DNA from: Chloroflexota bacterium
GTDB lineage: Bacteria > Chloroflexota > UBA11872
Length of the DNA stretch: 64,000 bases
Assembly (NCBI GenBank): GCA_026708035.1
Contig: JAPOVQ010000014.1
Span: forward strand, 128,826-192,825
Reading direction: 5' to 3'
The first letter of the stretch is position 1, and each line of letters starts with the position of its first letter. Below, piece after piece: positions 24,405-36,950 of the stretch. A program made the position numbers and the translations under genes. The notes under the pieces are model-generated. The model did not search any database, was not told the origin of the DNA, and saw only the letters and a list, made by a program, of their open reading frames with translations.

Positions 24405-25486
24405 TTCGGGCGGACATACGCACAACGGTCGGCGGCTTCGACCTCGCGGTCGACCTCGCCGTGGATCGCGAGATCACCGTGCTCTATGGGCACTCCGGCG
24501 CCGGCAAAACACTTACGCTTGAGGCCATCGCCGGACTCCTCACGCCGCGTCAGGGCCGCATCACGCTGCATGACCGGGTCGTATTCGACAGCGCGTCCGG
24601 CGTCAACGTGCCGCCGCAACGGCGCGATCTCGGCTATCTGGTGCAGAGCTACGCGCTCTTTCCTCACCTCACCGTCGCGCAGAACATTGCCTATGGCCTC
24701 GGCCATGTCCGCCGTTCCGAGCGCCGCGAGCGCGTGGAGCGCTTCGCGCGCATGTTCGGCGTGGACGATCTGCTGCGTCGCCGTCCGGCGCGCATTTCGG
24801 GCGGCCAGGCCCAGCGCGTGGCCCTGGCGCGCGCGCTCGTGCGCGAGCCTCGGGTGCTGCTTCTCGATGAGCCATTCGCCGCGGTCGACTCGAGCAACCG
24901 CCGCACCATGCGGCGTGAGCTCCGGCAGCTCGCGCAGCGCCTCGATCTCAGCGTGGTCATGGTCACCCACGACCTCACCGAGGCCTACAACGTGGGCGAC
25001 CGGCTGGCGGTCATCGATCGCGGACGCGTGCTCCAGGCGGGCCCGCGCGACGAGGTCTTCCACCGTCCCGCCACGGCGCGCGCCGCGGAGTTGCTCGGGG
25101 TTCAGAACGTCCTGCCCGGACGGGTCGTGGGCGCCGACGGCGACCGAGTACATATCGCCAGTGGGCTCGGCATGGTCGCGGCACAGGCCGACTCCCGTCC
25201 CCAATCCGACCACGTCCAACTCGCCGTTCGCGCCGAGCAGATCATCCTCGAGCGGCCCGACCGGCCAACGACCGAGCGCGAGAACCGCTTTCAAGTCACC
25301 ATCGTGGACGAGGCGGCTTTCGGCTTCTCGCACACGCTGGTCGTGCGAGTCGACGACGTCCCGTCCGGCGCGCCAACGCTAGAGATCGACGTCCCGGCGC
25401 ACCCCTACCAGGTGCTCAACGTCCCCGCCCGCCGCGACTGGCGCATCCACATCCCACCCGAAGCGGTGCATGTGATCCCAACGTGA
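24401..25486 (+). CDS. modC: Molybdate ABC transporter ATP-binding protein
   Basis: The 361-residue ATPase powers ModAB. Walker A is YGHSGAGKTLTLEAIAG, the Q-loop lies in YLVQSYALFPHLTV, the signature is ISGGQAQRVALARAL, Walker B is VLLLDEPFAAVD and the H-loop is VMVTHDLTEAY. After the nucleotide domain, residues about 235-361 carry a MOP/TOBE-like regulatory domain (GVQNVLPGRVVGADGDRVHIASG, FQVTIVDEAAFGFSHTLVV). The start is a GTG at 24401 inside the modB stop. The operon ends here; a strong new promoter begins 40 bp further on. Confidence 0.94.
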   Translation: MIRADIRTTVGGFDLAVDLAVDREITVLYGHSGAGKTLTLEAIAGLLTPRQGRITLHDRVVFDSASGVNVPPQRRDLGYLVQSYALFPHLTVAQNIAYGLGHVRRSERRERVERFARMFGVDDLLRRRPARISGGQAQRVALARALVREPRVLLLDEPFAAVDSSNRRTMRRELRQLAQRLDLSVVMVTHDLTEAYNVGDRLAVIDRGRVLQAGPRDEVFHRPATARAAELLGVQNVLPGRVVGADGDRVHIASGLGMVAAQADSRPQSDHVQLAVRAEQIILERPDRPTTERENRFQVTIVDEAAFGFSHTLVVRVDDVPSGAPTLEIDVPAHPYQVLNVPARRDWRIHIPPEAVHVIPT

Positions 25487-25524
25487 ATGGCGATCGAGAC
25501 TCGGAGTGTTCGTGGTTTGTACGG

Positions 25525-25530
25525 TATAAT
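25525..25530 (+). promoter_or_regulatory. Perfect TATAAT -10 box before tcmP
   Basis: TATAAT at 25525-25530 lies 31 bp before the ATG at 25561. It stands out as an AT-rich island between the modC stop and tcmP. A consensus -35 at 17 bp is not evident. GGTGAG at 25549-25554 gives a six-base spacing to the ATG, and an in-frame TAG at 25555 fixes the start. Confidence 0.55.
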
Positions 25531-25560
25531 CGCCACGGAGGCTGTCTTGGTGAGTAGTCG

Positions 25561-26646
25561 ATGTCCGAAGGAACCGTCTGGCCGCTTGAGCCGCATACGG
25601 CCGCAAAGCACGAGATTCTCCGCCGGTATCTGGGCGCCTGGTTCGCGATTCTTGGTCGTCAGAACCGACGTTTGGTCTACGTTGATGGATTCTGTGGCCC
25701 CGGGCGATACACCGACGGGGAACCTGGGTCGCCACTTGTCGCGGTTGAAGTAGTACAAACTCTTGCGGGCAAGATCGCGGCTAAGCCAGAATTGGTATTC
25801 ATTGATAACGATGAATTGAGAATTGACAATCTCAAGCTGGAGCTTAGATCTGAAGCTTCGAATAGCTACAATATGCATATCATTTGTGGGGAGTTCAGAG
25901 ACAAATTCCCCAGGGTGATTAATTCGCTGGTCCGGCGACAACAGCCTACGCCACCTCTCTTCGCGTTTATCGATCCGTTCGGTTTCTCGGGTATCCCATT
26001 TGATCTTGTGAGACGAATCCTCAGTTACGAACGTTCCGAAGCGTTTATTCTCCTAAACACAAATGCGTTGCGGAGATTCCTGGAACATTCAAATCATGAG
26101 ATTCGGATCCATATCGCGGAGACTTTTGGGACATCAGATGTATTTGAAATCTCGACAGCCAGCTTTGATCGTCTTATGGCGCTCCGTGAGCTATATCAAA
26201 AGCAGCTCAGCCAACACGCAAAGTTTGTTCGATACTTTGAGATGCTCGATAGCAGTGGCTCCACTATCTACCACCTGTTCTTCGCGACGAACAATCCGCT
26301 TGGATTTGAGAAAATGAAGGACGCAATGTGGGCTGTGGATCGAACTGGTGCTTTTCGCTTCTCAGACAGGACTGATCCAAATCAAATGATCCTGTTGGGA
26401 CCCGACCCGAGCGGCGATCTGGCGGCCACTCTCGCGGAGCGGTTTGGTGGTCAGACGCACGACGCTCAATTGGTCAAGCGTTGGGTGGTGGAGAACTCGA
26501 TATTCGTGCGCAAGCACGTGACGGCCGCGTTGAGGTATGCGGAACGCAACGGGCAAATAGCCGTAGGCGAGTCCAAGAGCGACGGCAGCCGTCGGAAGCG
26601 CAACACCTATCCTGACGGATCAACGATCAAGTTTCGAGATCGCTGA
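25561..26646 (+). CDS. tcmP: Three-Cys-motif partner protein TcmP (methyltransferase-like fold)
   Basis: The 361-residue protein matches the TcmP family, named for its regular pairing with three-Cys-motif proteins of the Gp37/Gp68 type; its function is not established. The sequence shows a Rossmann-like pattern: VYVDGFCGPGRY at residues 39-50 resembles methyltransferase motif I, ELVFIDND at 77-84 an acidic motif II, and FAFIDPFGFSG at 134-144 a motif IV-like DPFG. A basic C-terminus (SDGSRRKRNTYPDG) could bind nucleic acid. Base composition is visibly more AT-rich than all neighbours, suggesting acquisition. It is 3 bp upstream of the Gp37/Gp68-type gene, so the two form one unit. Confidence 0.85.
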   Translation: MSEGTVWPLEPHTAAKHEILRRYLGAWFAILGRQNRRLVYVDGFCGPGRYTDGEPGSPLVAVEVVQTLAGKIAAKPELVFIDNDELRIDNLKLELRSEASNSYNMHIICGEFRDKFPRVINSLVRRQQPTPPLFAFIDPFGFSGIPFDLVRRILSYERSEAFILLNTNALRRFLEHSNHEIRIHIAETFGTSDVFEISTASFDRLMALRELYQKQLSQHAKFVRYFEMLDSSGSTIYHLFFATNNPLGFEKMKDAMWAVDRTGAFRFSDRTDPNQMILLGPDPSGDLAATLAERFGGQTHDAQLVKRWVVENSIFVRKHVTAALRYAERNGQIAVGESKSDGSRRKRNTYPDGSTIKFRDR

Positions 26647-26649
26647 GCC

Positions 26650-27372
26650 ATGACGCAGACTTCTCGCACTGAGTGGACGGACGCCACGTGGAATCCCGTG
26701 ACGGGGTGCACCCGCACGAGCCCTGGCTGCGACCACTGCTACGCCGAGCGGATGGCCAAGCGGCTGCAGGCGATGGGGAACCCCCGATACACGAACGGGT
26801 TCGAGGTGACGTTGCATTGGGACAAGGTGTCCGAGCCGCTGAAGTGGCGGCAGCCGCGCCGCATCTTCGTCAACAGTATGAGCGACCTGTTCCATGACGC
26901 GGTTCCGCCGGATTTCGTGCGGGCAGTCTTCGAGACCATGGCGTCCGCCCACTGGCACGAATTCCAGGTACTCACGAAGCGCGCTCGGCGGCTTCCCAAG
27001 ATCGCGGGCGGCCTCAAGTGGCCTCCCAATGTCTGGCTCGGCGTCTCGGTCGAGTCTCAGGAATATGCCTGGCGCGCCAACCACTTGCGTGGCGTCCCTG
27101 CCGCGGTGCGCTTCTTGTCGGTCGAGCCGCTTGTCGGGCCCGTTCAGACTCTGGACTTGGACGGCATCGACTGGGTCATTGTGGGCGGCGAGAGCGGACC
27201 CGGCGCCCGGCCAATGGACGCGCATTGGGCGCGCGCGATTCGCGACCAATGTGTGGCTGAATCCGTCCCCTTCTTCTTCAAGCAGTGGGGAGGTGTGAAC
27301 AAGCACCGCACCGGCCGCGTGCTCGATGGTCGGACGTGGGACGAATTCCCCGTGGCGGTGACAAGAACCTAG
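26650..27372 (+). CDS. Phage Gp37/Gp68-family (DUF5131) three-Cys-motif protein
   Basis: The 240-residue protein carries all family hallmarks: TEWTDATWNPVTGC...GCDHCYAERMAKRL with Cys at residues 20, 27 and 30, then RIFVNSMSDLFHD, FQVLTKRARRLP, VWLGVSVESQEY, VRFLSVEPLVGP, DWVIVGGESGPGARPM and VPFFFKQWGG. The C-x6-C-x2-C cluster, placed like the iron-sulfur site of radical-SAM proteins, suggests a metal cluster; that is inference. Named from mycobacteriophage proteins, the family is also widespread in bacterial islands next to TcmP. Its GC content is close to the host's, unlike tcmP. It ends 21 bp from the convergent LLM gene. Confidence 0.9.
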   Translation: MTQTSRTEWTDATWNPVTGCTRTSPGCDHCYAERMAKRLQAMGNPRYTNGFEVTLHWDKVSEPLKWRQPRRIFVNSMSDLFHDAVPPDFVRAVFETMASAHWHEFQVLTKRARRLPKIAGGLKWPPNVWLGVSVESQEYAWRANHLRGVPAAVRFLSVEPLVGPVQTLDLDGIDWVIVGGESGPGARPMDAHWARAIRDQCVAESVPFFFKQWGGVNKHRTGRVLDGRTWDEFPVAVTRT

Positions 27373-31230: not shown

Positions 31231-34200
31231 TCACGACCAATCACGCGAGGGCGGTGCGCCCAGGCCGTCGCTCGTGGCGGGGTGGCAGGTGTGGGCCATC
31301 ACCTGCACCGCCCCGTGCTCGTCCTGCATCTCGCCGTAGACCAGCATCACCGGCGAATCCAAAATCGCGCGCTGGTAGCGGGTGAAGACCGACGGGCGAA
31401 TGATGATGTTGACCAGCCCGGTCTCATCCTCCAGCGACAGGAAGGTGTAGCCGCGCGCGGTGGGCGGGTGTTGGCGGTTGATCACGATGCCGGCCACGGT
31501 GACCATGACTCCGGTGCGGGCCTGCTCGCGCAGGGCGTCGGGAACGCCGCTGTCGCCCAGGCCCTGGAACTGCCGCCCGCTGCTCTGCCCGTCGTAGTGA
31601 TTCCCGGTGCGGCGGGCCCGCTCGCCGTAGCGCCCCACCGCGGGTGGATGCAGCGAGCGGCCTCGACCGCGGCGCGGGCGCGGAATCGGTGGGCGCACGC
31701 CGGCCGGAATGGCGACCCGAGGGATGCGCGTCGGCCGCGCCTTGACCGTCGCTGCGCTATCCGGGCGTGCGCGCCGCTTGGCGGCCAGGTCCAACAGGTC
31801 GGCGGCGCGCAGCACGCCGGATTGCGCCAGGGCCGGCCGCAGGAACTCCAGGCCGCGCCAGCGGGTCGAAAGGCCGGTGGCGGCGAAGTCCATCCGCACC
31901 TGCACCAGCGCGTCGGCCGGCGGCAGCGCCACCGGCTCCTCCAGCTCCGCCACCAGGTTCGGCAGCTCGCCGCCGTGGGCCGCCGGCGCATGGGCCTGCA
32001 CCTGCCAGAGCGCCGCGCGCCGGTTCAGCCCCAGACCGCGAAATGCCCCCGCCGTGGCCAGCGCTTCCAGGACGTTGATCGGCAACCGCGTCCGGCGGCA
32101 GAAGTCTTCCAGGGAGCGATACGGCCCGCGGGCCGACGCCTCATCCAGGCGCTCGCGGTGGGCCTCGCCCAGGCCCTCCACGTACTGATAGCCCATGCGC
32201 ACCGCGCCGTCCGGCTCCACCATGCACTCGAAGCGGCTGTGCCGGATGTCCACGGGACGCACCGTCACCCCGTGCCGCTGGGCGTCGCCCACCAGGGTGT
32301 GCGGGCTGTAGAAGCCCATCGGCTGGCTGTTGAGGATCGCGCAGGTGAACTCCGCGTGGTGGTGCACCTTCAGCCACGCCGAGACGTACACCAGCAGCGC
32401 GAAGGCGCAGGAATGCGCCTCGGGAAATCCATAGCCCGCGTAGCCCTCGATCTGGGCGTAGATCTGCTCCGCCGTCGCCGCGGGGATGCCGCTGCGGGTC
32501 ATGCCTTGCATCAGGTCCTCTTGCAGCGCCTGGATATGCGCCAGGGAGCGCTTGCGGCTCATCGCGCGCCGCAGCGCGTCGGCCTTGGTTGCCGAGAACC
32601 CGGCCGCGACCATGGCGATTTGCAGGCACTGCTCCTGGAAGATCGGCAGCCCCAGCGTGCGCTGCAGCACCGATGCCAGGCCGGGCCACACGGGATCGTC
32701 CGCCTCCTGCCCCGTGCGTCGCAGGATCCAGCGCCGGTGCATCTTGGTGGTCATCGGTCCGGGCCGGATGATCGCCACCTGCACCACCAGGTCATAGAAG
32801 CACCGCGGCCGCGTCTGCGGCAGCACGTGCATCTGGGCGCGGCTTTCCACCTGGAACATGCCGATGGTGTCGGCCGCGCAGATCGCGTCGTAGACCTCGG
32901 GGTCGTCGAAGCTGAAGTCCGCCAGCGCCAGGCGCCGGCCGTGCCGCCGTTCGATCAGTCGGAAGGCCCGCTGGATCAGCGTCAGCATGCCCAGCCCCAG
33001 CAGGTCGATCTTCAGCAGGCCGGTGTCGGCGCAGTCGTCCTTGTCCCACTGCGCCACGGTGCGCCCCTCCATCGTCGCCGGCTCGATCGGCACCGACCCG
33101 TCCAGCGGGTGCGAGGCGATGATCATGCCCCCGGTGTGAATGCCCAGGTGCCGGGGAAAGTCGACGATCTGCCGGCTTAGCTCCAGCAGATCGCGGCCCA
33201 CGCGGTTAGAGACCTCGCGCGGCACGTCGCCGCCCGCCTGATCGGGATGCGGCATCTCCACGCTGGGATGCCATTGCAGCCGCTCCGCCAACCGGTCCAC
33301 CTGGGCCTGCGGCAGCCCCAGCGCCTTGCCCACGTCGCGGATGGCCGAGCGCCCGCGAAAGCAGATGACGTTCGCCACCATGGCCGCGCGACGGCGGCCG
33401 TAGCGCTCATAGACGTACTGAATGACCCGCTCGCGCTCCTGGTGCTCGATGTCCAGGTCGATGTCGGGCGGCTCGTCCCGGTCCGGCGACATGAACCGCT
33501 CGAACATCAGCCCGGCGGCGATGGGGTCGACCATCGAGATGCCGAGGGCGTAGCAGAGGATCGATCCCGGCGCCGAGCCGCGGGTGTTGACCAGGATGTC
33601 GTGGCGGTGACAGAAGTCCACCAGGTCGCGCACGGTGAGGAAATAGCCCGCCAGCCGCAGGTCCTTGACGTACCGCAGCTCCCGCCGCACGCGCTCGCAC
33701 ACCGCCTCGTCGAGGTCTGGATAGCGCCGTCGCGCGCCCTCCCAGACCAGGCGCTCCATGTAGCCGTATTCCGACTCGCCGCTGGGCGTGGGAAACGTGG
33801 GCAGGCCGTATTCGAGCTTGCGACTCAGGTCGAAGTCGCACATCTCGGCAATGCGCAGCGTGTTGCCGACCGCCTCGGGGACGCCGGCGAACAGCCGCGC
33901 CATTTCCGAGGCGGACTTGAGCACGAACTCGTGATTGGGCCGCAGCCGCCGCCCCGCCGTTTCCAGCGTGGCGGTGTGCTTGATGCAGACCAGCACGTCC
34001 TGCAGCCGCGCCCGGGATCGGTCGTGGTAGTGGACGTTGTTGGTGGCCGCCAGCGGCAGGCCGGTGCGCCGCGCGACATCGAGCAGTCCGGCGTTGGCCA
34101 GGTGTTCCGTTTCGAGTCGATGGTCCTGGAGCTCGAGAAAGAAGCCGCCGGGTTCGAACAGCTCGGCGTAGGTTCCCGCCAGCTCGATGGCCTGGCGGTC

Positions 34201-34620
34201 GTCGCCATTTAGCGCCGCGTTTGGAATCGCGCCCCGCAGGCAGCCCGACAGCCCAACCAACCCGCGCGTGTGCCGCGCCAGGGTGTCGAGGTCCAGCTCC
34301 GCCGTTCCCTTGGGCCGGTCGCGGTGCGCCGCCGTGGCCAGCCGGCAGATGTTGGCGTAGCCCTCCCGGTCACGCGCCAGCAGGGTGAGGTGACGGCCCT
34401 CGGACAGGCTGGCTTCCATGCCCACGATGGGACGCAGGCCGTGCTCGCGCGCCGCGTGGGAGAACCGCACCGCGCCGTAGACCCCGTCGTGGTCCGTGAT
34501 CGCCAGCGCCGTCAGCCCAAGCTCGGCGGCGCGCGCCGCCATTTCCTCGGGATGCGACGCGCCATCGAGAAACGAGAAGTTGCTGTGCGCGTGCAGCTCG
34601 GCGTAGGCGGGCTGGGTCAA
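31231..34620 (-). CDS. dnaE2: Error-prone DNA polymerase DnaE2/ImuC
   Basis: This 1129-residue replicative-type polymerase lacks proofreading and carries out damage-induced mutagenesis. An N-terminal PHP domain begins TQPAYAELHAHSNFSFLDGASHPEEM (HxH). The polymerase active site is DEPPDIDLDIEHQERERVIQYV. Thumb and fingers motifs follow (FPRHLGIHTGGMIIASHPLDGSVPIEPA, IPIFQEQCLQIAMVAAGFSATKADALRRAMSRKR-like). A C-terminal OB fold carries GYTFLSLEDETGLVNIIIRPSVF. It starts at a TTG (34620) that overlaps the imuB TGA by two bases, so translation is coupled. Extension of the open frame upstream to 35427 lies inside imuB and is spurious. Confidence 0.95.
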   Translation of the reverse strand: MTQPAYAELHAHSNFSFLDGASHPEEMAARAAELGLTALAITDHDGVYGAVRFSHAAREHGLRPIVGMEASLSEGRHLTLLARDREGYANICRLATAAHRDRPKGTAELDLDTLARHTRGLVGLSGCLRGAIPNAALNGDDRQAIELAGTYAELFEPGGFFLELQDHRLETEHLANAGLLDVARRTGLPLAATNNVHYHDRSRARLQDVLVCIKHTATLETAGRRLRPNHEFVLKSASEMARLFAGVPEAVGNTLRIAEMCDFDLSRKLEYGLPTFPTPSGESEYGYMERLVWEGARRRYPDLDEAVCERVRRELRYVKDLRLAGYFLTVRDLVDFCHRHDILVNTRGSAPGSILCYALGISMVDPIAAGLMFERFMSPDRDEPPDIDLDIEHQERERVIQYVYERYGRRRAAMVANVICFRGRSAIRDVGKALGLPQAQVDRLAERLQWHPSVEMPHPDQAGGDVPREVSNRVGRDLLELSRQIVDFPRHLGIHTGGMIIASHPLDGSVPIEPATMEGRTVAQWDKDDCADTGLLKIDLLGLGMLTLIQRAFRLIERRHGRRLALADFSFDDPEVYDAICAADTIGMFQVESRAQMHVLPQTRPRCFYDLVVQVAIIRPGPMTTKMHRRWILRRTGQEADDPVWPGLASVLQRTLGLPIFQEQCLQIAMVAAGFSATKADALRRAMSRKRSLAHIQALQEDLMQGMTRSGIPAATAEQIYAQIEGYAGYGFPEAHSCAFALLVYVSAWLKVHHHAEFTCAILNSQPMGFYSPHTLVGDAQRHGVTVRPVDIRHSRFECMVEPDGAVRMGYQYVEGLGEAHRERLDEASARGPYRSLEDFCRRTRLPINVLEALATAGAFRGLGLNRRAALWQVQAHAPAAHGGELPNLVAELEEPVALPPADALVQVRMDFAATGLSTRWRGLEFLRPALAQSGVLRAADLLDLAAKRRARPDSAATVKARPTRIPRVAIPAGVRPPIPRPRRGRGRSLHPPAVGRYGERARRTGNHYDGQSSGRQFQGLGDSGVPDALREQARTGVMVTVAGIVINRQHPPTARGYTFLSLEDETGLVNIIIRPSVFTRYQRAILDSPVMLVYGEMQDEHGAVQVMAHTCHPATSDGLGAPPSRDWS

Positions 34621-36173
34621 TCGAGCGCTCCCTGGGCAAACCAGCGACCCTGGGCGCGGTCGTGGAAGAGCACCAGGCCGCGGCCGTCGTCCAACTGCAC
34701 GTGCAGGTAGTCGCGGTCGACGGGTTCCGCCCACCACTCCGTCTGCACCCGCTGCGGTCCGTAGCTGGCGACGACTTTCCTGGTCGCGCCCTCGAGCGTC
34801 ACCCAGCGGGCGTCGTCGGCTTGGCTGAGGCGCACCGGACGGGGCGGAGCGAAGAGCCGCGTGAGCCCGCGCGCGCCCACCAGGCCGGTCAGCCACACCG
34901 CCGGGAGCTTGGATGCCTCGCGCGTGGGGGACTCCTCGACGTAGGCGTCCAGACGGCGGGCGGCCGTGTCGAGCGTGAAGCCGTCGGGACAGAGCGCCAT
35001 GCGGAACAGCGCGGCGTCGCCCAGTTGCGCCCGCAGCCGGCTGATCGCGTGGTTGGCGCGCGCCACGCGCTCCGACCGGTTGCCGAGCAGCGACCGCTGC
35101 GTACCGACGCCAGGCTCTAGATGCCGCACGTCCAGGCTCATGCGCACCACGCCGGGCTGGTGGGATGAAATCTCCGGCATCACCGCGTCGGCTGGCGCGG
35201 TGTCGGCCCATGCCTCGAAGCGCCAGCGGGCCGCGTCGCGAAAGGTGGCGGCCGCGGCGGACGGCTCGGGCAGCGGCAGCGCGAACCGTTGCACCCTGCC
35301 GTCCGCGCGCTCGATCCGGCCGCCGACCTGCTGCGCCATCAGGTCCCGCTGGGCCAGGCGCGCGGCCAGGCGCTGCGCCAGGGCCTGCAGCGCGAAGGCG
35401 AGACGGTCCACGTTGTGCTCTTCCCACTCGAAGTCGACCGCTTCGTGCAGCACGAGCGGCCGCTTCCGTCCGCGCAGGGGCCTGAGCTCCTCGCCGCGGG
35501 CTAGCCGCCTTGCTTGCGCGCCCTCGACCCCGTAGCGAGTCCGCACGGCGTTGGCCGGCAGACCGGCGAACGCGCCGATCGTGGCGATGCCCAGCGTCTC
35601 CAAGGTGGCCAGCGTCCGCTCGTCCAGCGGCAGCCGCTCCACGGGCTGCTCGGCCAGGTAGGCCCGATCGGAGGTGGCGACGACGGCGACGCCTTCGGCG
35701 CCCGCCGTGCGCGCCGCCACCTCAGCCGCCAGGCGTCCCGTCGCCAGCCCGATGTGGGCCGTGTGTCCGGTCGCCGCCGCGACGTCACGGCGCACCCGCG
35801 CGCCCAGCGCCGCGTCGGGGCCGTAGAGCGGCTCCAGGCCCGCCGCGTCGGCAAACGCCAGCCCCACGCCTGCGTCCTCCACCAGCGGGGAAAAGCGGTC
35901 CAGCACGTCCAGCACCGCCGCGAACGCGCGGGTGTAGCGCGGCGGATCGTCGGGCACGAAGACGCCCCGCGGGCAGCGCTGCGCCGCTTCCTTGACCGCC
36001 ATGCCCAGCCGCAGCCCCGCGCCGTGGGCGGCGTCGGAAATCTCGATCAGCCGCCGCTGGCTAGCTTGCGGCGCGTAGATCGCCAGCGGCTGCGCCGACC
36101 ACGCCGGATGCGTCTGCGCTTCCACCGTGGTTCGAAAGCGCGGCATCCAGAGGCAAAGCGTCTTGCGGTCCAC
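34617..36173 (-). CDS. imuB: ImuB, catalytically dead Y-family polymerase
   Basis: The 518-residue protein is Y-family in fold but lacks the catalytic carboxylates: the N-terminus reads KTLCLWMPRFRTTVEAQTHPAW, without the DxD of active enzymes, and the SxDE motif is absent (VEDAGVGLAFADAAGLEPLYG). The fingers/thumb region LATLETLGIATIGAFAGLPANAVRTRYG is present. ImuB acts as the adaptor linking DnaE2 to ImuA and the sliding clamp. The GTG start at 36173 (or ATG at 36146) lies inside imuA, overlapping it by 113 bp. Its stop overlaps the dnaE2 start. Confidence 0.93.
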   Translation of the reverse strand: MDRKTLCLWMPRFRTTVEAQTHPAWSAQPLAIYAPQASQRRLIEISDAAHGAGLRLGMAVKEAAQRCPRGVFVPDDPPRYTRAFAAVLDVLDRFSPLVEDAGVGLAFADAAGLEPLYGPDAALGARVRRDVAAATGHTAHIGLATGRLAAEVAARTAGAEGVAVVATSDRAYLAEQPVERLPLDERTLATLETLGIATIGAFAGLPANAVRTRYGVEGAQARRLARGEELRPLRGRKRPLVLHEAVDFEWEEHNVDRLAFALQALAQRLAARLAQRDLMAQQVGGRIERADGRVQRFALPLPEPSAAAATFRDAARWRFEAWADTAPADAVMPEISSHQPGVVRMSLDVRHLEPGVGTQRSLLGNRSERVARANHAISRLRAQLGDAALFRMALCPDGFTLDTAARRLDAYVEESPTREASKLPAVWLTGLVGARGLTRLFAPPRPVRLSQADDARWVTLEGATRKVVASYGPQRVQTEWWAEPVDRDYLHVQLDDGRGLVLFHDRAQGRWFAQGALD

Positions 36174-36831
36174 CGGACCTCCTGAGAAACGGACAGTCGA
36201 TGACGAGGCGCCGCGCGCCCGTGCCGCTGCGCGACTTCAGCACCCGGACCTCCAGCGCCAGCCCGATCGGCGCCTGGGTCAGGCGACTGCGCTGCCAGCG
36301 CCAGCCGCGGCAGGCCACGCCGAGCCGCAGGGAGGCCAGGTAGGGCAACCCGGTGACGCGCCGGCCGCCGGACGCCGTCACCACCACCAGTCCCGCCGCC
36401 CCGCGTCCCGCCAGGTCGGCCAGGTGCGACCAGCGGTTGACCGGCGGCCGGGTGGCCTCCAGGTCCAGCAGCAGGGCCTCGAAGGCGTTGCTGCGCAGCA
36501 GCGTGGCGGTCGCCTGCAGCGCCGCGTCGGCGTCCGGCGGACGCACCACCACCAGGCGTGACAGATCGAGGCTCAGGGCCGCGCCCGCGGTGGGAGCGAA
36601 CGTACCGGGCAGATCGACGTAAGCCGCCAACCCGCCCTGATCGAGCGCGGCGGCCAGGGTCCGTAGCCCCAGCGTCAACGCGCCGCCGCCGCGTGGGCCG
36701 GTGAGCTCGCTCACCCGGCCACGGGGAATCCCCGCGAACCCGGTGGCCTGGTCCAGCGCGGGAATGCCGGTGGCAAAGGCGGCGTCCGGTGGACTGACGC
36801 CGAACAGGCGGCCGGCGGCGTGCAGCCCCAA
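36061..36831 (-). CDS. imuA: ImuA, RecA-like SOS mutagenesis protein
   Basis: The protein resembles a RecA core: TGIPALDQATGFAGIPRGRVSELTGPRGGGALTLGLRTLAAA, with the Walker A degraded to GPRGGGAL, then AAYVDLPGTFAP, LLLDLEATRPPVNRWSHLADLAGRGAAGLVVVTASGGRRV and RLVIDCPFL. It works with ImuB and DnaE2 in translesion synthesis. The TTG at 36831 is the first common start, but homologous-looking sequence (LRRAVRDIEQRLG) continues 22 codons upstream to a CTG at 36897 that has AGGG in front; an in-frame TAG precedes that. The true start may therefore be the CTG. The last 113 bp overlap imuB. Confidence 0.88.
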   Translation of the reverse strand: MGLHAAGRLFGVSPPDAAFATGIPALDQATGFAGIPRGRVSELTGPRGGGALTLGLRTLAAALDQGGLAAYVDLPGTFAPTAGAALSLDLSRLVVVRPPDADAALQATATLLRSNAFEALLLDLEATRPPVNRWSHLADLAGRGAAGLVVVTASGGRRVTGLPYLASLRLGVACRGWRWQRSRLTQAPIGLALEVRVLKSRSGTGARRLVIDCPFLRRSGGPQDALPLDAALSNHGGSADASGVVGAAAGDLRAAS

Positions 36832-36925: not shown

Positions 36926-36950
36926 ACTATACCAAACAAAAACCGAACAG
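36926..36950 (-). promoter_or_regulatory. Candidate imuA promoter with GTTC-N7-GTTT direct repeat
   Basis: On the minus strand, TATAGT (36931-36926) is a good -10 box. Just upstream is GTTC-GGTTTTT-GTTT, one base from the GTTC-N7-GTTC LexA site of alphaproteobacterial imu operons. SOS control is expected for this cassette, but the LexA motif of this lineage is not known to me, so the assignment is tentative. Confidence 0.35.

Follow-up and report, generated by a model that had tools for sequence, protein, structure and literature searches.

A catalogued TcmP-DUF5131 gene pair of Chloroflexota joins a predicted methyltransferase to a spore photoproduct lyase-like protein behind a LexA-type operator

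Two adjacent genes of a Chloroflexota bacterium, tcmP and a DUF5131 (Gp37/Gp68) gene, code for a predicted class I methyltransferase and for a protein akin to spore photoproduct lyase (SPL), and lie behind a LexA-type operator. We tentatively read this pair, with slightly less than even confidence, as a LexA-controlled two-enzyme module that would act on nucleic acid, most likely against phages or mobile DNA. The pair is common and is an already catalogued, unvalidated candidate defense system; beyond its PADLOC listing, we describe here the SPL-like partner, the RlmJ-like nature of TcmP, the exchange of TcmP and the LexA-type operator. An SPL-like partner, a swapped TcmP and LexA-type operators in several phyla take the pair from "function unknown" to directly testable and, if radical chemistry on nucleic acid proved true, it would be a new chemistry for bacterial immunity or for the SOS response.

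The first-pass annotation of the 64,000 nt stretch of DNA analyzed here (the window) had singled out this pair, and included neither its radical-SAM or SPL kinship nor the LexA-type operator, the exchange of TcmP classes or the PADLOC listing. None of the three outcomes named there as contrary to its proposal (a TcmP fold unrelated to methyltransferases, cysteines not conserved among homologs, or a lack of association with phage or defense genes) was clearly found.

Results

The TcmP-DUF5131 pair and its catalog entry

Both open reading frames were confirmed, 3 bp apart, between a molybdate-type ABC operon (modC-like gene) and an LLM oxidoreductase gene (Table 1). Their neighborhood in the window consists of metabolic genes and an SOS mutagenesis cassette, and is not a defense island; the cassette was recognized from ImuA/RecA and Pol IV-family HMM matches below their cut-offs and from a dnaE2-like ORF read from the sequence. 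The pair had been credited with a perfect TATAAT box of its own: the hexamer is present, but a promoter scan found no sigma-70 hexamer pair at this position, so that the case for an own promoter is the -10 hexamer itself. The suspicion that the pair was assembled from two sources agrees with composition, GC and GC3 being 0.52 and 0.57 for tcmP vs. 0.65 and 0.83 for the DUF5131 gene (0.69 and 0.84 for the upstream modC-like gene), as well as with the exchanged block and the PADLOC classes described below.

Table 1. Coordinates in the window of the tcmP-DUF5131 locus and associated features.
Feature	Position	Strand	Evidence
tcmP, RlmJ-like predicted class I methyltransferase, 361 aa	25561..26646	+	TIGR04474 E = 1e-61; PDC-M30A E = 3e-49; AF2 pLDDT 93; Foldseek class I methyltransferases; hhalign RlmJ
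Methyltransferase core of TcmP, residues 11-259	25591..26337	+	TIGR04474 match; invariant K16, Y23, G46, D138
Predicted C-terminal winged helix of TcmP, residues 267-335	26359..26565	+	Sub-threshold PF22560; model secondary structure
DUF5131 (Gp37/Gp68) gene, SPL-like, radical-SAM-like protein, 240 aa	26650..27372	+	PF07505 E = 5e-103; AF2; Foldseek; hhalign
C20-x6-C27-x2-C30 putative cluster motif of the DUF5131 protein	26707..26739	+	Invariant 105/105; CX3CX2C in family relatives
LexA-type operator GTTCGTGGTTTGTACGGTA, reverse complement TACCGTACAAACCACGAAC	25508..25526	-	0 mismatches to congener motif
-10 hexamer TATAAT, 2 nt overlap with LexA-type operator	25525..25530	+	Sequence
Block without counterpart in congeners (exchanged tcmP plus upstream region)	25478..26664	+	blastn vs. 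G001-G005
Second LexA-type box of the window, 99 bp upstream of imuA	36930..36948	+	Matrix score 27.5
imuA-imuB-dnaE2-like SOS mutagenesis cassette, ~4 kb from the pair	31231..36831	-	HMM matches below cut-offs; ORF reading

The two proteins gave nearly full-length matches to both models of the PADLOC candidate system PDC-M30 (PDC-M30A, 3e-49; PDC-M30B, 2e-108) and their genes are adjacent, which places the pair in this class; the DUF5131 protein matches PDC-M41B/M30B. PDC-M30 is a computational candidate only, derived from guilt-by-embedding (PMC10855318, PMC12988326), and in a survey 68.8% of the 32 Pseudomonas aeruginosa strains carrying it were phage-resistant, which is a correlation only (PMC10855318). 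Our literature search found no anti-phage validation of PDC-M30, no PMC paper on DUF5131 itself except one that mentions a phage Gp37Gp68 gene and, in the searchable literature, no mechanism proposed for the pair.

The DUF5131 protein as a relative of spore photoproduct lyase

The signature of the radical-SAM superfamily is CX3CX2C, and its chemistry relies on a [4Fe-4S] cluster and the reductive cleavage of SAM; SPL uses radical chemistry to repair UV damage in DNA (spore photoproduct). The DUF5131 protein matches PF07505 along residues 5-234 of its 240 residues (344.1 bits, gathering cut-off 28.9 bits; E = 5e-103), and C20, C27 and C30, together with Y31 and A32, did not vary among the aligned relatives (105 of 105). 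Its AF2 model (mean pLDDT 94) retrieved SPL as the five top PDB matches in Foldseek (prob 0.99-1.00), pointing to a (partial) radical-SAM TIM barrel, with modest scores (E from about 1e-3 to 7e-3, TMq 0.50-0.52), and the cysteine motif directly follows the first strand of the model, where radical-SAM enzymes also have theirs.

The window protein shows CX6CX2C instead of the strict signature and did not match Pfam Radical_SAM (PF04055). Nevertheless, its motif equals the canonical one with three inserted residues, and searching with TIGR04471, a remote family, returned DUF5131 family relatives that do carry CX3CX2C (L206, L207, L208, L215, and L224), exemplified by WNPVVGCKHGCPYCYA (L215), FNPVTGCLHGCEYCYA (L207) and NLVIGCTIGCSYCYA (L206) vs. 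WNPVTGCTRTSPGCDHCYA in the window. Largely common to these relatives and the window protein are the S-x-S/G-D motif following beta2, LTK/R, EPL and WxIxG. In hhalign, a DUF5131 profile matched a mixed SPL/SplB set with prob 93 (one comparison reaching E = 2.7e-7), and the cysteine motif, the SD motif following beta2 and the TK motif were in register, whereas the control TcmP profile reached prob 0.35; the strong match appeared only with the broader SPL/SplB profile, and narrow DUF5131 sets scored weakly against SPL (prob 2.6 with one SPL sequence, 29 with an SPL set). Additionally, in Halopiger a TcmP gene adjoins a canonical SPL-like radical-SAM gene in place of DUF5131. From the Foldseek matches, the CX3CX2C relatives, the in-register profile alignment and the Halopiger arrangement, we are confident of the kinship to SPL, which favors an iron-sulfur-type site among the two options, iron-sulfur or zinc, offered by the first-pass annotation. 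Because the CX3CX2C signature fails, the window protein is radical-SAM-like and not a proven member of the superfamily.

The likeness to SPL (PF20903) and to SplB/Rv2578c-like proteins thus comprises the fold, the position of the cysteine motif and the SD and TK motifs. The differences comprise the spacing of the cysteines, a similarity below Pfam Radical_SAM detection and, as read from the sequences, Ser76 of DUF5131 for the SPL cysteine just before the TSD motif; also unlike SPL, DUF5131 usually adjoins a TcmP in the cellular sets studied. DUF5131 is also a remote relative of radical SAM mobile pair A (TIGR04471; 72.9 bits, far below the cut-off of 355); in mobile pair A/B, however, the partner is a second radical-SAM protein, whereas here it is a predicted methyltransferase.

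TcmP as a putative methyltransferase

TcmP matches TIGR04474 along residues 11-259 (208.9 bits, curated cut-off 53 bits; E = 1e-61). The stretches VDGFCGPGRY, ELVFIDND and FAFIDPFGF, formerly pointed out as class I methyltransferase motifs, are all present, and prediction of the structure of TcmP alone (AF2, pLDDT 93) gave the corresponding fold, with 184 Foldseek matches to class I methyltransferases at E ≤ 0.001. Direct sequence searches yielded no convincing solved relative for either TcmP or the DUF5131 protein, the closest solved sequence to TcmP being RlmJ (E = 0.007), which is the 23S rRNA m6A2030 methyltransferase. A TcmP profile matched Escherichia coli RlmJ with prob 89.5 in hhalign, vs. 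0.45 for the unrelated methyltransferase RsmJ used as control. Similarity to RlmJ includes the motif I region (YVDGFCGPGRY in TcmP, YLDTHAGAGRY in RlmJ), with a shared Y-[VL]-D-...-G-x-G-R-Y, a PGSPLIA/PGSPLVA block and the [FI]IDP of motif IV. We are therefore confident that TcmP belongs with the class I methyltransferases and is nearest in sequence to RlmJ.

Unlike RlmJ, TcmP is partnered, mobile, and has an extra predicted C-terminal winged helix, suggested by a weak PF22560 GMT-wHTH match (E = 0.02, below cut-off) and by helices 284-295, 302-312 and 317-329 plus short strands near the C-terminus of the model. Across 79 sequences, K16, Y23, G46 and D138 are invariant; motif IV of the window protein reads DPFG, of which only D138 is invariant in TcmP, instead of the DPPY-type motif of N6-adenine methyltransferases, so that N6-adenine methylation would be only a tentative assignment for TcmP. 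A reading as a Trm1-like guanine methyltransferase, suggested by the shared DPFG and by the presence of Trm1 among the Foldseek matches, was discarded, RlmJ being the best match by sequence; since TcmPs do not share the P of DPFG, we assign no base specificity.

Exchange of TcmP at one genomic site

The modC-like and LLM genes occur together in five congeners (G001-G005). In agreement with the idea that the pair was inserted between them, G001 and G004 contain only about 40-50 bp and no pair at this site. We saw by eye no direct repeats at the empty-site junctions, and no transposase among the inspected ORFs, and discarded a transposon insertion. G002 and G005 carry a DUF5131 protein that is 90-91% identical to that of the window, whereas their TcmPs are only 23% identical to it and fall in PADLOC class M41A, the window TcmP being M30A. 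The blastn alignments of the window with the five congeners extend up to L171:1303 and resume at L171:2491 where DUF5131 is present. The site in G003 (L176) has DUF5131 alone, 73% identical to the window's, preceded by a short in-frame stretch, MDEFLRLYVAASDE, and a stop; the stretch resembles the start of the G002 TcmP, and tcmP has apparently been deleted.

The same pattern is seen at larger scale, as across 112 DUF5131-TcmP pairs lying within 400 bp, DUF5131 proteins 45-55% identical carry TcmPs that are about 21% identical. These comparisons make us confident that TcmP is an exchangeable module at this site, and suggest that DUF5131 would be the constant catalytic partner and TcmP a replaceable, fast-diverging specificity partner. 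Since A subunits of both types are combined at one site with near-identical B partners, PDC-M30 and PDC-M41 look like a single system whose A subunits are interchangeable.

LexA-type operators precede the pair

The operator preceding tcmP, GTTCGTGGTTTGTACGGTA, has no mismatches to the congener motif; shuffled sequences give an expectation of 0.03 matches per window with three mismatches allowed. In G002 and G005 the same motif precedes the pair, and in G003 it precedes DUF5131, in each case in opposite orientation with respect to the genes. The six genomes of the window's genus (score 20.5) and six from the sister genus (scores 25.5-29.1) also have it ahead of lexA, at a distance of approximately 100 bp; it was not clear upstream of lexA in G006, and is found at dinB in this lineage. 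The imuA box is the only other site in the window (matrix score 27.5, vs. 30.2 for the tcmP box) and repeats the operator/-10 layout of tcmP (GTTCGGTTTTTGTTTGGTATAGT). Thus, one 19-mer motif is common to lexA, dinB, imuA and the pair, that is, to lexA and classical SOS genes. In genome scans, each genome had a few sites of this kind, and a reversed control pattern gave almost no sites.

A LexA-type box was also seen at an Rv2578c-like radical-SAM gene (L294:999-1937, with orthologs in L301, L308, and L261), which is boxed in several genomes of the family and distantly related to radical SAM mobile pair B (TIGR04470; 87 bits, cut-off 410).

Other phyla were tested with their own LexA boxes. The Gram-positive-type box CGAACNNNNGTTCG, with at most one mismatch and within 250 bp upstream, was found at 19 of 39 pairs vs. 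16 of 651 other genes, a difference whose Fisher p = 3e-17 overstates independence, since 15 of the 19 positive pairs are from Streptomyces. Perfect boxes of this type occur in Alicyclobacillus, Ornithinimicrobium, Nocardiopsis and Rhodococcus. Among Proteobacteria, a perfect CTGTN8ACAG precedes an Acidovorax pair by 47 bp, and in Methylobacterium a perfect GTTCN7GTTC lies 3 bp upstream of DUF5131, both being eight-base patterns and individually modest. No recognizable box was present at the remaining 20 of the 39 cellular loci in the Gram-positive-type test, and Pseudomonas, Rhizobium, Halopiger and most IMG/VR loci likewise yielded none. Lineage-appropriate LexA boxes are thus seen ahead of many pairs from Actinomycetota, Bacillota and some Proteobacteria. 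We are confident of LexA-type operators in several lineages, and less sure of LexA control across the whole family; judging from these sites, DNA damage probably induces the pair.

Distribution of the pair and its possible purpose

The 112 pairs include all arrangements (tcmP first, DUF5131 first, convergent and divergent), and we are confident that the pairing is conserved. In line with the phage or defense link proposed in the first-pass annotation, pairs are present in phages, plasmids and some defense-like islands. In Rhodococcus, the pair is near Wadjet-like genes and a zeta toxin; there are restriction-modification (R-M)-like genes near the pairs of Acidovorax and R. phaseoli; and in the temperate Gordonia phage Easley the pair sits between the integrase and the immunity repressor. 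In an expression table, SMa2243 of S. meliloti, a TcmP, is beside the defense helicase gene hna (PMC12445080).

In the explanation that we tentatively prefer, LexA would occupy the promoter of the two genes until its cleavage is triggered by DNA damage, for example from phage infection or mobile-element activity. TcmP, with its RlmJ-like SAM methyltransferase core and predicted winged helix, would then choose and methylate a target, on which the DUF5131 protein, an SPL-type radical-SAM-like protein with an enlarged cluster loop, would perform a radical step. TcmP would be exchanged between lineages because it carries the target specificity, and the likeliest purpose would be a response, set off by damage, to phages or mobile DNA. 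We lean to defense on account of the PADLOC PDC-M30/M41 classes, the Wadjet-like, R-M-like and hna neighbors, the slot in a temperate phage, the patchy presence of the pair and the exchange of TcmP. Counting against the explanation as a whole are the metabolic and SOS neighborhood in the window, the many unboxed pairs, the existence of solo DUF5131 genes in phages, and the similarity of near and far neighbors when scanned against PADLOC, with R-M, MADS-like and DUF1016/PDC-S02 matches in both sets. A broader proposal, that this is a widespread SOS-induced radical-SAM/methyltransferase pair performing an undescribed two-step modification, with interchangeable TcmPs setting the target and PDC-M30 and PDC-M41 being one system, we regard as possible and rather doubtful.

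The probable membership in the SOS regulon could also be due to DNA repair and not to phage combat, with the SPL-like enzyme reversing or rewriting a lesion by radical chemistry and TcmP marking or processing the site. The closest solved fold to DUF5131 is indeed that of a DNA repair enzyme, LexA boxes recur upstream of the pair, the same genome has the boxed Rv2578c-type SPL-like gene, and the B. glumae pair adjoins imuA-polY-dnaE2; furthermore, solo DUF5131 genes are found in phage regions with RecT, RusA or Rad52. However, the distribution is very patchy, with TcmP present in 36 of the 121 genomes sampled from the phylum and the pair absent from the site in some congeners, and pairs are often carried on plasmids and in temperate phages, while the hypervariability and class exchange of TcmP would be unusual for an enzyme acting on a fixed lesion. 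We consider repair the less likely of the two purposes, if worth keeping in mind, and would tentatively favor defense.

The methyltransferase-like component, the R-M-like neighbors and the carriage by phages would also suit a constitutive base modification that marks own or phage DNA in the manner of a restriction-modification or anti-restriction system. Self-protection, though, should need permanent expression, and LexA control would keep the modification off without damage, which argues against constitutive self-marking; we regard this explanation as improbable. In two actinobacteriophages (L231:2305-4906 and L236:2421-4975), a C5-cytosine DNA methylase gene adjoins or overlaps the solo DUF5131 gene, a point in favor of constitutive modification, but this adjacency is absent from 29 other solo viral loci and we discarded a general pairing.

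Least probable is that the three cysteines hold zinc or are structural and DUF5131 is a non-radical TIM-barrel helper of TcmP, as the broken signature, the missing PF04055 match and Foldseek values of only about 1e-3 (TM about 0.5) might suggest, given that relatives with otherwise shared motifs keep CX3CX2C, the motif is placed as in radical-SAM enzymes and the SPL profile aligns in register.

Solo DUF5131 genes of mycobacteriophages lie in DNA-metabolism regions, and the existence of such phage genes suggests that DUF5131 can act without TcmP. The genome of the window contains, on another contig, a second DUF5131-TcmP pair (L178:690-5517), for which we found no LexA box; its TcmP is M41A-like and the pair is directly downstream of a gene for a 1002-aa protein with similarity to N6-methylases and type I-II R-M proteins. 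Finally, three plasmid loci, from Rhodococcus, Acidovorax and Burkholderia (L240, L244, and L245), have two TcmP genes around a single DUF5131 gene.
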